Below, one piece after another: positions 20,953 to 29,271 of a stretch of DNA of 31,655 bases (position 1 is its first letter; each line of letters begins with the position of its first letter). Position numbers and translations under genes: made by a program. Origin of the DNA: a virus; IMG/VR virus record IMGVR_UViG_3300028800_000242, positions 1 to 31,655 of that record; one strand, written 5' to 3'. The notes below the pieces were generated by a model, which worked only from the letters and a program-made list of their open reading frames with translations, was not told the origin of the DNA and did no database searches.

Positions 20953-21792
20953 TTAGGCCGCGACGACTGGACCCGCGCCGAGTACCGCGCGATGCAACGC
21001 ATCGGCCGGAAGTTGGGTGTAACGAGCCGTGATGACAGGTGTGGAATGGCCGAGAAGTTGCTGCACGGCGAACAGGTCACGCTCGACGGCATAGGCAGCG
21101 GTCGCGAAACGGTGACGCAGCTTGTGCGCTGTCCAGCCATCAGGCAACGCGCGGCCGATCAGCTTGCACACGTATAGCGGCGAGAGATGACCGTTGTCCT
21201 GGCCAGGAAACAGATACCCGGCGGTCGCCGGCAACGACGCCGCGACCATCGGATGAAGAGGCACGCTGCGCTGCTTGCCACCCTTGCCGACGACATGGAG
21301 CAGCTGACCGTCGATGTCGCCGGCATGCACCTTCGCGATCTCGCAGCACCGAAGCCCTGCATATGCCGCGAGCATCAGCATCGCCTTCGACCGCTCGTCG
21401 GCGAGCAGCAGGCCTCGAGCGATCACTTCCTCAGGTGCCGGCCGTGGCACGCCAGCCGGCACGCGGATCTTCGGCAGCCTGGCGGCCGGATCCGCCTCGA
21501 GTAGACCTTCCTCGAACATCCAGCCGAACAACTTGCGCGCGCTCGAGCGGATGGCTTTGCGCGATTCAGGCGCGAGCCCGTCACGAGCGAGCACGCCGAG
21601 CAGTTGCTCGGTCGTGATCTGCGATGGCGACTTGGCCAGCCGAGCGAACCGGCGAGCGTGATGCATCCGAAGCCTCACCGTGCCCGGCGAGACACCTGAT
21701 GCGAGAAGAAAGAGCAGATATGCGTCGAGCGCGTCCCGCCACATCAGCAAGACCCTCACCGATCCCTTCGTCACGGCACGGCGCTCTATCAC
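20953..21792 (-). CDS. int: tyrosine integrase without arm-binding domain
   Basis: This 279-residue recombinase has all catalytic residues: Arg148 (AGLRCCE), Lys173 region (GKGGKQRS), His223 and Arg226 (HKLRHRFA), His249 (LLGHST) and Tyr258 (TARYTQL). The N-terminus goes almost at once into the core-binding helical domain (about 17-110), so the arm-type DNA-binding domain of lambda-like integrases is absent, as in Brujita-like or Xer-like enzymes. GTG 21792 overlaps the repressor stop. The protein ends VVAA, compatible with an ssrA-like degradation signal. It would recombine attP (21874-21904) with a host tRNA gene. Confidence 0.95.
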   Translation of the reverse strand: MIERRAVTKGSVRVLLMWRDALDAYLLFLLASGVSPGTVRLRMHHARRFARLAKSPSQITTEQLLGVLARDGLAPESRKAIRSSARKLFGWMFEEGLLEADPAARLPKIRVPAGVPRPAPEEVIARGLLLADERSKAMLMLAAYAGLRCCEIAKVHAGDIDGQLLHVVGKGGKQRSVPLHPMVAASLPATAGYLFPGQDNGHLSPLYVCKLIGRALPDGWTAHKLRHRFATAAYAVERDLFAVQQLLGHSTPVITARYTQLPADALHRAVLGAGPVVAA

Positions 21793-22124
21793 GCCGCACG
21801 TAACGCAAGTGCTCGGCTGGGAAGGATGAGACGTATGCGCCCGAATGGACTAGTGGGGCCAGAGTGACCGATAGGTTCCTGGTTCGAGTCCAGGTGCGGG
21901 AGCAACTCATCTAGGTCGATCCCGGTCGCCAAGGCGTAGGCCATCACGACGCTCTTCGGTGCCTGGTCGGCGGCCTCGTACTTGCGAAGCGACGTCCTCG
22001 AGATCCCGATGACCTCGGCGAAAGCCTTGGCGTCGTAGCCACGCAGCTCGCGTGCTTTGCGCAGCCGGTCGCCATTGTGGAAGACGATCGTCAGCTCGTC
22101 TTCGCGGCGCATGGTTTGTGCCAT
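21789..22124 (-). CDS. immunity repressor (XRE-type HTH), viral form carrying attP
   Basis: This 111-residue protein has a helix-turn-helix domain (about 17-73, NGDRLRKARELRGYDAKAFA then VIGISRTSLRKYE). Residues 74-84 are encoded by the antisense of a tRNA T-arm/acceptor (LPHLDSNQEP). Residues 85-111 are a viral tail ending SRALALRAA. Integration at the tRNA sequence would replace that tail. The likely transcript starts a few bases before ATG 22124, with a -10 at 22131-22136. Its stop overlaps integrase. A lambda-like regulator role is inferred from the HTH, the divergent partner and the operators. Confidence 0.85.
   Translation of the reverse strand: MAQTMRREDELTIVFHNGDRLRKARELRGYDAKAFAEVIGISRTSLRKYEAADQAPKSVVMAYALATGIDLDELLPHLDSNQEPIGHSGPTSPFGRIRLILPSRALALRAA
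21874..21904 (+). other. attP core: 3' end of a tRNA gene
   Basis: On the + strand this segment reads as a tRNA T-arm and acceptor: stem CCTGG (21878-21882), loop TTCGAGT, stem CCAGG (21890-21894), acceptor strand TGCGGGA, then GCA. The anticodon arm expected upstream is missing, so this is not a tRNA gene but a fragment that restores the host tRNA on integration. It lies next to int and inside the repressor gene. Exact core limits and tRNA identity need the host attB. Confidence 0.88.
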
Positions 22125-22126
22125 GC
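22109..22126. promoter_or_regulatory. inverted repeat over repressor start codons
   Basis: GCATGG (22109-22114) and CCATGC (22121-22126) form an inverted repeat around TTTGTG. It contains the repressor's first ATG and its fifth codon ATG. It may be an extra operator half-site pair or a translation-control hairpin on a leaderless message. Confidence 0.35.
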
Positions 22127-22130
22127 CTCA

Positions 22131-22159
22131 AGTGTCGGCATCTGACCAAGGTAAGTCAA
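22131..22159 (-). promoter_or_regulatory. repressor promoter (leftward)
   Basis: On the minus strand, TTGACT (22159-22154) is a -35 box. A 17-bp spacer leads to GACACT (22136-22131) as -10. Only six bases separate the -10 from the repressor ATG, so the mRNA is probably leaderless, which is common in actinobacteria. The -35 lies inside the left operator. Confidence 0.7.
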
Positions 22160-22192
22160 GGTCCGAATGGGCGTGTCGCCTTGACTCACCTT
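22148..22192. promoter_or_regulatory. paired operators of the lysogeny switch
   Basis: AAGGTAAGTCAAGG (22148-22161) and CCTTGACTCACCTT (22179-22192) are inverted copies matching at 13 of 14 positions, 17 bp apart. Each holds the -35 box of one divergent promoter. Repressor binding here could close both promoters or regulate them together. Confidence 0.75.
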
Positions 22193-22209
22193 GCGCGCGT
22201 GGCTAATCA
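22181..22209 (+). promoter_or_regulatory. early promoter (rightward)
   Basis: TTGACT (22181-22186), a 17-bp spacer, and TAATCA (22204-22209) form a near-consensus promoter. The ATG of the first early gene follows seven bases later, again suggesting a leaderless transcript. The -35 lies inside the right operator. Confidence 0.75.
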
Positions 22210-22216
22210 TGCTCAT

Positions 22217-22408
22217 ATGACCAACCCTGATCTCGTCACGACGCTCGAGGCAGCTCAGATGCTTCGAGTCAGCGTGCCGACCGTCAACCGGCTCGCTCGC
22301 GCCGGCAAGCTCACCGAAGTCTTCAAGCTGCCAGGCCTCCGCGGCGGACGTGTCTTCAATCGCGCGGACGTCCAAGCGCTCGGCGCTCAGGAAGCGCAGA
22401 GCGCGTGA
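22217..22408 (+). CDS. excisionase/Cro-like DNA-binding protein
   Basis: This 63-residue protein has the excisionase-type winged helix pattern LVTTLEAAQMLRVSVPTVNR followed by LARAGKLTEVFKLPG and RVFNRADVQAL. It is the first gene of the early operon and diverges from the repressor, where phages of the BPs/Brujita type also encode a small regulator. It could direct excision or act as a Cro-like repressor of the lysogeny promoter. Sequence alone does not decide. Confidence 0.8.
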   Translation: MTNPDLVTTLEAAQMLRVSVPTVNRLARAGKLTEVFKLPGLRGGRVFNRADVQALGAQEAQSA

Positions 22409-23981: not shown

Positions 23982-24247
23982 TCGCCTCGTGGCTGCTCGT
24001 GCTCTTTACCGGCTATTGGCTCGGCCGCGACGCCGAGCGATCCCGCGAAGGCGGCACGCGCGACCAGCGACGCCGAGCGATCCGCGCCGAAGGCCGGCTG
24101 ACTGACCTTCAGCAGCGGCTCTGCCGCGGCGAGCGGATCCTCTGCCGGCACGACCTCACCATCACCAGCCCACCGCTCGACGACAACCAGGTCGCCGACA
24201 TCACCCGCCGGCAGCTCAAGCGCAGCCGCCTCACCGGAAGGCTCTAA
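23966..24247 (+). CDS. small membrane-anchored basic protein
   Basis: This 93-residue protein starts at GTG 23966 with GGAAGGA about 12-15 bases upstream. Residues 3-20 (VWLIASWLLVLFTGYWLG) form one TM helix. The remainder is highly basic and helical (RDQRRRAIRAEGRLTDLQQR), likely inside the cell. Such proteins in early operons are sometimes exclusion or membrane-tethering factors. The role here is unknown. Confidence 0.6.
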   Translation: MYVWLIASWLLVLFTGYWLGRDAERSREGGTRDQRRRAIRAEGRLTDLQQRLCRGERILCRHDLTITSPPLDDNQVADITRRQLKRSRLTGRL

Positions 24248-25728
24248 TGACCACCGCGACCGCAATCCCCGAATCCGCGCTCGACGTGACACCGAGGACC
24301 GGCAAGGTTCGCAGCGTCGTCGACCAGCTACTCGCGCACAACGCCGGTCAGGTCGAAGCGATCGCCGTCGAGCAGCTGCATTGGAACCCTGACAACCCTC
24401 GCACCGACGCCGGCGATGTCGTCGACATGGCAGCCACGATCGCCGCGATCGGCGTGCTCGAGCCGCTGCTCGTCGCGCACGCCGAAGCGATGCAGCTCGC
24501 ATCCGACCGGCTGCCGCTGATCGGAGCTGGCGAGTTCATCGTGATCGCCGGTCATCGCCGGCTCGAGGCCGCGAAACTCGCCGGCGTCAAGACCGTGCCA
24601 TGCATCGTCCGCGACGACCTGGTCGGCGAGCACGCTGATGTCGCGATGGTCGTCGAGAATGTGCACCGCGAGGACCTGACACCGATCGAGGAAGCCCGGT
24701 CATATCTTCGGCTGCAGGACGTGCACGGCAAGAGCCAACGCGACATCGCGGCGCTCGTCGGCCGCAACCAGTCGCACATCTCGAAGCGGCTACAGCTGCT
24801 CGCGCTGCCCGAGAAGATGCACGCGAAGGTCGGCACCGACGAGCTCAGCGTCGACGAGGCGCTCGTGATCGCGAAGCACGCCGACAAGCCGAGCGTCCTC
24901 AAGGCGATCGAGAAGCGATCGAGCTATCAGTCGGTCGAGCAGGTCGTCCGCACCGCGGTCGAGAAGGACAGCAAGGACAAGAAGGTCGCGGCCGCCAAAG
25001 AGAAGCTCCGCAAGCAAGGCGTCACCAACTTCGTCAAGTACGACGAGTACGGCCAGCGAGCCGACAGCAAGCCGCGACCGCTGAAGTACCTCGCTGAGCA
25101 AGGTGTCGACGTCGACGCGCACATCCACAGCGAGTGCCATGCGGTCGCGGTCGGCTTCGGGAATTGGGGGACCGAGCTTCATACCGTGCCGGTCTGCACC
25201 AAGCCCGAGAGTCACCCTGAGAGCGGCGACACCAAACGAAACGAGCAGGAGGACCGCGCGGCCGCGAAACGAGCGCGTGAGAAGCAGCTCGACGCGAAGC
25301 GGCACGAAGGTCGGCTCGCCGCGATCGCCGGCGCGACCGCGAAGGCGATCGCCGCCGACACCGAGCAGGTCGCGCAGGCGATCGCGCTTCGTGTGCTGCT
25401 CGAGTCGAGCTTCGATGTCTCGGATTTCGACGGCTTGCTCGCCGTGCTCGGTATCGAGGTCGACCTGACCGAGAAAGACGATCACGGCACGGTCATCGGC
25501 GAGCTCAGCTATTGGGAGCGCAACGACGCCGTCACCGCTGCCGTCCTGGACTACGCGAACGGCAGCGCCGCGGCTCTCAAACGTGCTTTCGTCGCCGCGG
25601 TCCTCGTCGACCAGGAGAGCAATCACTTCAACGGCGAGCCCGGTCGGATCTTCCTCGAGTGGCTGCCGAAGCACGGCTACAAGCTCTCGGCCGGCGAGTC
25701 GACACGCCTGCGCGAGCTATCGAAGTGA
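24247..25728 (+). CDS. ParB-like DNA-binding/CTPase-type protein
   Basis: This 493-residue protein has the ParB/Spo0J core: a WNPDNPR strand (46-52), a GHRRLEAAKLAG motif (102-113), an ENVHREDLTPIEEA motif (137-150) and a helix-turn-helix (162-182, KSQRDIAALVGRNQSHISK). A charged helical region (230-260) and a large C-terminal part without clear family follow. ParB proteins bind palindromic parS sites and spread on DNA. No ParA gene is seen, so it may act as a regulator, in DNA organisation, or in prophage/plasmid maintenance. The eight dispersed palindromes are natural candidate targets. Confidence 0.85.
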   Translation: MTTATAIPESALDVTPRTGKVRSVVDQLLAHNAGQVEAIAVEQLHWNPDNPRTDAGDVVDMAATIAAIGVLEPLLVAHAEAMQLASDRLPLIGAGEFIVIAGHRRLEAAKLAGVKTVPCIVRDDLVGEHADVAMVVENVHREDLTPIEEARSYLRLQDVHGKSQRDIAALVGRNQSHISKRLQLLALPEKMHAKVGTDELSVDEALVIAKHADKPSVLKAIEKRSSYQSVEQVVRTAVEKDSKDKKVAAAKEKLRKQGVTNFVKYDEYGQRADSKPRPLKYLAEQGVDVDAHIHSECHAVAVGFGNWGTELHTVPVCTKPESHPESGDTKRNEQEDRAAAKRAREKQLDAKRHEGRLAAIAGATAKAIAADTEQVAQAIALRVLLESSFDVSDFDGLLAVLGIEVDLTEKDDHGTVIGELSYWERNDAVTAAVLDYANGSAAALKRAFVAAVLVDQESNHFNGEPGRIFLEWLPKHGYKLSAGESTRLRELSK

Positions 25729-28319: not shown

Positions 28320-28873
28320 TGGACGACCAGCAAGCAAAGACCGCCGACGAGATCGGCCTCATCGAGCAAGACGCTCGCCAGATGTCACCCGAGCAGCTCG
28401 CCGAAGCGGCTCGAGCCGCGGCCGAGGACATCGCCGACGACCAGGCGACCGACGACGCCGTCACCGACATCAGGTCGCGGCTCGCCGGCGTTTACGCTGA
28501 CGAGCTCGCCGCCGGCGACGACGTCAACGCCGCCCGTGCCTCCGAACCGGAACCGCAAGAGCTGCCGAAATGCCCGCACGGCTACTTCGCCTACGAGCCC
28601 TGCCAGCAATGCTTCGAGACGGTCCTGAAGTCATCGCTCGCGACCGGCCAGCTCGACCCCTTCGCGCTTTCCGGCATCGTCCTATCGAGCGCGGTCGCTC
28701 AACTCGCCGTCACGAAGATGCCGCGGCTCGAGCACAAGATCGCGCTCGGCCACGCAACAGCCGGCCTCGCGCACGCTCTCGTCGCGAAGGCGCAGCTCGA
28801 GCTCATGCAGCGCCAGATTCAAGCCTCGACCGAGAAGAAGATCGTCCTTCCGAACGACATCCGCGTCCGCTGA
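28319..28873 (+). CDS. early protein with Cys/His zinc-like motif
   Basis: This 184-residue protein starts at ATG 28319 (TGATG). The first 75 residues are acidic and helical (EQLAEAARAAAEDIADDQAT). A short CPHGYFAYEPCQQC motif (85-98) is probably zinc-binding. The rest is a helical domain ending IVLPNDIRVR. It sits between the replication protein and an HNH gene. Function is unknown; a replication accessory role is possible from place alone. Confidence 0.65.
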   Translation: MDDQQAKTADEIGLIEQDARQMSPEQLAEAARAAAEDIADDQATDDAVTDIRSRLAGVYADELAAGDDVNAARASEPEPQELPKCPHGYFAYEPCQQCFETVLKSSLATGQLDPFALSGIVLSSAVAQLAVTKMPRLEHKIALGHATAGLAHALVAKAQLELMQRQIQASTEKKIVLPNDIRVR

Positions 28874-28886
28874 TGCCGACGGCATC
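28872..28886. repeat. dispersed palindrome copy 8 (GATGCCGACGGCATC)
   Basis: This copy, with perfect 6-bp arms, covers the TGATG junction that starts the HNH gene and encodes Met-Pro-Thr-Ala-Ser. Confidence 0.8.
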
Positions 28887-29271
28887 ACTACCTCGCCGAC
28901 TACAGCAGCAACGCGCCGGCCGGAAAGCCGCGACGTCGACGACGCTGCCCGACGCGATCGAAGCGCAGCTGCAGGCACGAGCCGGCGGACATTGCGAGCT
29001 CTGCGGTCGGCGACTCAGCCGTGCACAACGCCGGCATCACCGCTGGACACGAGCGCAAGGCGGCGTCGACGACATCCGCAACGTCGTCCTCGTGCATTTC
29101 AACTGTCACAACGCGATACACGCGAACCCGCAATGGAGCTATAGCAACGGCTGGCTGATCGACGCGCCGCACCGACGCTTCGCGAGCCGGCCTCTGCTAC
29201 TGCACGCCGGCACGGCAACCGAGCGCAAGGTCACGCTGACCAGCGCCGGCGGATACGCGACCGCGGCATGA
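28873..29271 (+). CDS. HNH-family endonuclease-like protein
   Basis: This 132-residue protein starts at ATG 28873 within the palindrome. It has CELC (41-44), HHRW (55-58), Asn70 (DIRNVV), CHNAIH (78-83) and GWLID, the pattern of HNH nucleases of phage early regions. One usual Cys of the second pair is replaced by His75 (VHFNC). Start and end are coupled to neighbours. It may be a nicking or double-strand nuclease acting in replication or host DNA breakdown. Confidence 0.8.
   Translation: MPTASLPRRLQQQRAGRKAATSTTLPDAIEAQLQARAGGHCELCGRRLSRAQRRHHRWTRAQGGVDDIRNVVLVHFNCHNAIHANPQWSYSNGWLIDAPHRRFASRPLLLHAGTATERKVTLTSAGGYATAA

Follow-up and report, generated by a model that had tools for sequence, protein, structure and literature searches.

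Does integration into the host chromosome also switch the immunity of this phage? The question arises from a short stretch of tRNA sequence that lies in antisense within a repressor gene (rep), next to an integrase gene (int). The window analysed here is the whole of an IMG/VR virus record (31,655 bp), the + strand of which carries terminase, portal, capsid, and tape-measure genes. Its terminase is ~45% identical to those of Arthrobacter phages, which, at the sequence level, makes it an actinobacteriophage; the host probably belongs to aquatic or Frankiales-like actinobacteria. We found all the sequence features of the BPs/Brujita type, namely an attP within rep, the same gene order, a stop codon at attL (in silico here), and protein ends in -AA. 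The locus is thus very probably an integration-dependent immunity switch of this type.

The features of the locus are collected in Table 1. The integrase retains all catalytic residues (R148, K170, H223, R226, H249, and Y258) and ends in GPVVAA. It is without an N-terminal arm-binding domain (its phrog_1 match starts at profile position 167), and armless integration-dependent systems have been mentioned previously (PMC6109161). The rep gene lies just upstream of int on the same strand, the rep stop and the GTG start of int overlapping as GTGA. Between rep and the divergent HTH_17 gene, CTTGACTYACCTTG occurs as two exact inverted copies, with no further copy in the window (chance expectation 0.11). 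Each copy overlaps a TTGACT -35-like hexamer read from the sequence, and a consensus promoter scan also picked up a rightward promoter at the candidate operator located at 22180-22193. With ~7 nt between a GACACT -10-like hexamer and the rep ATG that follows it, the rep mRNA may be leaderless.

Table 1. Features of the rep-int locus, by position in the window.
Feature	Coordinates	Strand	Evidence
int, tyrosine integrase, 279 aa	20953..21792	-	Phage_integrase E=1.5e-16
Viral tail of rep, residues 85-111 and stop, with predicted -AA degron	21789..21872	-	terminal AA kept in relatives
rep, viral-form immunity repressor, 111 aa	21789..22124	-	HTH_3 E=1e-9; phrog_2328 repressor 3.6e-10; AlphaFold
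attP common core, corresponding to the tRNA-Asn(GUU) 3' end (T-arm, acceptor strand, discriminator base)	21874..21904	+	31/31 identity
Candidate operator CTTGACTTACCTTG, overlapping the -35 of the putative rep promoter	22147..22160	-	exact repeat
Candidate operator CTTGACTCACCTTG, overlapping the -35 of the putative early promoter	22180..22193	+	exact repeat; promoter consensus scan
HTH_17 gene, excisionase or Cro-like, divergent from rep	22217..22408	+	HTH_17 3.1e-9; phrog_66 7e-8

The first-pass annotation had read the core segment (GGTTCCTGGTTCGAGTCCAGGTGCGGGAGCA) as the T-arm and acceptor end of a tRNA, translated in antisense as rep residues 74-84. The coordinates give these same residues, and a genome-collection scan bears the reading out: six actinobacterial MAGs, among them one Frankiales and two Nanopelagicales, carry the 31-mer without mismatch (31/31 nt), in each case as the 3' terminus of tRNA-Asn(GTT). 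The tRNA can thus now be named. Its identity was first apparent in viral contig L009, which holds a complete tRNA-Asn. Within the window, the T-arm motif GGTTCGANTCC occurs only in this segment, and ARAGORN found no complete tRNA. Ten viral contigs with the same 27-nt core were dropped as relatives, one of them being L009 with its complete tRNA-Asn and the nine others having unrelated flanks. These nine (L002-L008, L010, and L011) carry the core in other surroundings, which most of them share (GAGTGGTTCCTGG...), and they may represent another phage group sharing the tRNA-Asn site.

With attB located in silico in the six actinobacterial genomes, the C-terminus of the prophage repressor can be predicted. 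When the 5' portion of each host tRNA-Asn was placed next to the phage core and the N-terminal part of rep, an 86-aa repressor resulted in 6/6 cases, ending in PHLDSNQEP followed by FD, LD, AG, or SD. In all six junctions, two host residues and a TAA stop replace the viral tail, whose previously stated length of 27 residues agrees with the coordinates (residues 85-111). The exchange of this tail for host-encoded residues, also put forward in the first-pass annotation, therefore stands as a prediction for this phage, in which the shortening of rep from 111 to 86 aa upon integration is seen in silico only. The prophage TAA complements U35 and U36 of the anticodon, and A37 (tRNA positions 35, 36, and 37). 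As a GUU anticodon is not free to vary, rep should be truncated at one and the same point whichever host carries this tRNA-Asn.

The layout of the repressor fits such a truncation. The protein consists of an HTH domain (residues 17-74; Pfam HTH_3 match at residues 21-74), the att core (residues 74-84), and a disordered tail (residues 85-111) ending in SRALALRAA. In the AlphaFold model, helices span residues 17-74, and no part of the HTH fold lies beyond residue 74. Residues after 80 have low pLDDT (44-49 as block means), which is consistent with a removable, disordered tail. The weak codon usage of the tail counts against the integration-dependent switch and against a degron, GC3 being 0.50 in the tail vs 0.84 in the body of rep.

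The last two residues of the tail make a candidate degron. The window excluded, 14 of the 18 attP-form relatives, taken as repressors that combine an HTH with an antisense T-arm, end in AA, and 17/18 in AA or AS. By comparison, AA ends only 63 (5.0%) of the 1253 remaining ORFs (100 aa or longer) at the same loci (binomial p ~2e-15, ignoring shared ancestry, attP-form relatives being not fully independent phylogenetically). When attP-form repressors are aligned, their tails are unalignable save for the last two columns, which belong to the small number that hardly vary. Candidate hosts have ssrA tags ending in FALAA (YALAA in the Frankiales MAG). Speaking against the degron, the window repressor has ALRAA where these tags have ALAA, and -AS or other ends are seen in some relatives. 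The RAA and VVAA ends initially reported for rep and int are both present. The accompanying caution, that other proteins of this phage also end in Ala-Ala, is correct in that such proteins exist, for example an HNH endonuclease ending in ATAA (gene at 28570-29271, close to the right-hand end of the record). It is nevertheless a mild one, as AA ends 10/295 stop-to-stop frames of 60 or more codons in the window, rep and int being two of them.

In BPs, the viral repressor is removed through an ssrA-like tag, and DNA binding is similar in both forms (PMC4557955). By analogy, the viral repressor of this phage would be degraded via its -AA tail, and would lose activity. Alternatively, integration could truncate rep without the tail being a degron, the switch consisting in the uncoupling of int from the rep promoter, or in a difference in activity rather than stability. 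Such a scenario would accommodate tails that are unalignable apart from their last two residues, the few attP-form relatives ending in -AS, -VA, or IDRD, and the systems without ssrA-like tag in an M. abscessus prophage survey (PMC8092301). However, we consider it unlikely given the excess of terminal AA in relatives over the 5% background, the -AA end of int itself, and the tag-dependent degradation of a BPs viral form that binds DNA much like its prophage counterpart.

Natural relatives show the predicted truncation. Seven proviral rep relatives stop two codons after DSNQEP: L013, L014, L016, L021, and L022 are located at the ends of IMG/VR proviruses, while in L015 and L019 an intact tRNA-Asn adjoins the rep relative and the TAA overlaps the anticodon. 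As homologues such as L012-L022 were partly found via the PHLDSNQE peptide, its conservation in them adds no separate support. Record G527 (L016) has int at one end and rep at the opposite end. Similarly, six chromosomal prophages in bacterial contigs carry int and rep 14-40 kb apart, at opposite prophage ends; their shared att repeats (19-40 bp) correspond to the 3' ends of tRNA genes, and the shortened rep stops within tRNA-Arg or tRNA-Lys. The separation of rep from int by integration, as anticipated in the first-pass annotation, is thus seen in natural prophages of related systems. Rejoining attL and attR in silico produced a longer rep in each of these six prophages, ending in SGRAA, PSAA, RAVA, RLAA, ERAA, and IDRD (-AA in 4/6). 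Two integrase relatives (L056 and L069) were set aside, as they are near a tRNA-Gly/Cys/Val cluster with tRNAs in sense, a layout other than the rep-containing one. The closest chromosomal integrase (54% identical) is among these loci.

An integrase search of the six attB-bearing MAGs gave 32-35% matches only, to open frames of 319-355 aa which are probably Xer-like and were set aside as lysogen evidence. A lysogen of this very phage did not turn up, and its host and attB are therefore deduced from the tRNA match. This lack of a lysogen and of a close integrase is what could be expected if the match had been left behind by a past recombination with a host tRNA gene and the phage attached elsewhere, but this is highly improbable, as the match is perfect over 31 nt, runs to the 3' end of the tRNA, and directly precedes an intact integrase gene, a second T-arm motif is absent from the window, and related systems integrate exactly at such a site.

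Under the integration-dependent switch, rep and int would be co-expressed leftward from the rep promoter in the free phage. The 111-aa repressor, with its C-terminal ssrA-like -AA degron, would be kept low, so that lytic growth proceeds. The integrase would join attP to the host tRNA-Asn gene, cutting rep at residue 84, and the phage core would rebuild the tRNA 3' end. The rep frame would then run antisense into the tRNA for two codons before meeting the TAA complementary to U35, U36, and A37. The resulting 86-aa repressor, with its whole HTH domain and no degron, would accumulate and hold the lysogen, while int would be at the other prophage end, separated from the rep promoter. Protein turnover and immunity are the parts of this scheme that we infer.

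The design is already known from mycobacteriophages, its hallmarks being an attP in rep, a prophage form shortened by a stop at attL, and a viral form with -AA (PMC9934374, PMC8092301); here it is found in a phage probably infecting aquatic actinobacteria. The gene order matches the mycobacteriophage type, as had been claimed, and is shared by Brujita and several Gordonia, Curtobacterium, and Mycobacterium phages. In mycobacteriophage BPs (cluster G, gp33/gp32), as in the window, attP is inside rep, rep precedes int in the same direction, a Cro-like gene is divergent, and both the longer viral repressor (136 residues, vs 103 for the prophage form; PMC4557955) and the integrase end in an ssrA-like tag. 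The window differs by the use of tRNA-Asn, the size of the two forms (111 vs 86 residues), the addition of two host-encoded residues, the repressor sequence, and an unstudied, probably aquatic host. Brujita (gp34/gp33) has the same order, with rep ending in HAA and int in SAA, an integrase 31% identical to that of the window, and an antisense tRNA-type sequence (ESNPRP) in rep, but its tail is different and repressor similarity is weak (E=1e-4). Integrases of Gordonia cluster CW phages (McGonagall, EricDab, GMA5, and GRU3; PMC5559632) are 41-45% identical to that of the window, and the McGonagall and EricDab repressors also show an antisense tRNA core and an -AA end. In contrast with the window, these phages have genomes of ~17 kb and a tRNA-Lys attB (given for McGonagall, Jeanie, GMA5, and GRU3; PMC5559632). 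Finally, Curtobacterium phage Barebow has a repressor 42% identical over 68 aa and the same order of HTH gene, rep, and int, but crosses the tRNA core in another reading frame and its rep ends in RRAS. Our literature search found no paper on integration-dependent immunity in freshwater actinobacteria. The present locus extends this immunity to a phage probably of aquatic or Frankiales-like actinobacteria, with an exact prediction of both repressor forms (111 aa and 86 aa), and the design appears widespread among actinobacterial prophages.

The position of the prophage stop follows a pattern. In 10/10 natural cases with an identified tRNA (L015, L019, L183, L178, L180, L189, L177, L179, L185, and L190), it falls at tRNA positions 34-41, in the anticodon arm, and in two of the three antisense frames. 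To obtain an expectation, we counted by hand the three antisense frames of 57 tRNA genes from two genomes: 133 tRNA-by-frame combinations stay open across the 3' half, of which 27 stop at positions 34-41, the IRT frame contributing a single such stop. Among 26 systems (also counted by hand), 17 use the DSN frame, nine the GFE/GLE frame, and none the IRT frame. This pattern suggests selection for tRNA and frame. The anticodon arm is invariant because the tRNA must decode, and phages of this type could conceivably have been selected to enter the tRNA in the frame where this arm provides the prophage stop. We propose this only tentatively and lean against it, as the cases are related, tRNA choice may follow integrase ancestry, and the expectation is drawn from two genomes. 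If true, the rule would explain the preference for certain tRNA genes and frames, and why an identical truncation is predicted across host species. The two accounts compared here (PMC9934374 and PMC8092301) place the stop at or near attL and do not mention the anticodon as its source, and the anticodon-arm origin is possibly a new detail.

Two minor observations can be added. The early region of the window encodes a ParB-like protein (ParB_N and HTH_ParB; 24247-25728), in a phage that has an integrase too. At another locus (L049:2319-2675), the repressor ends in LDSNQKPFDYWMAA, with a viral tail so short that the att core and the degron almost abut.
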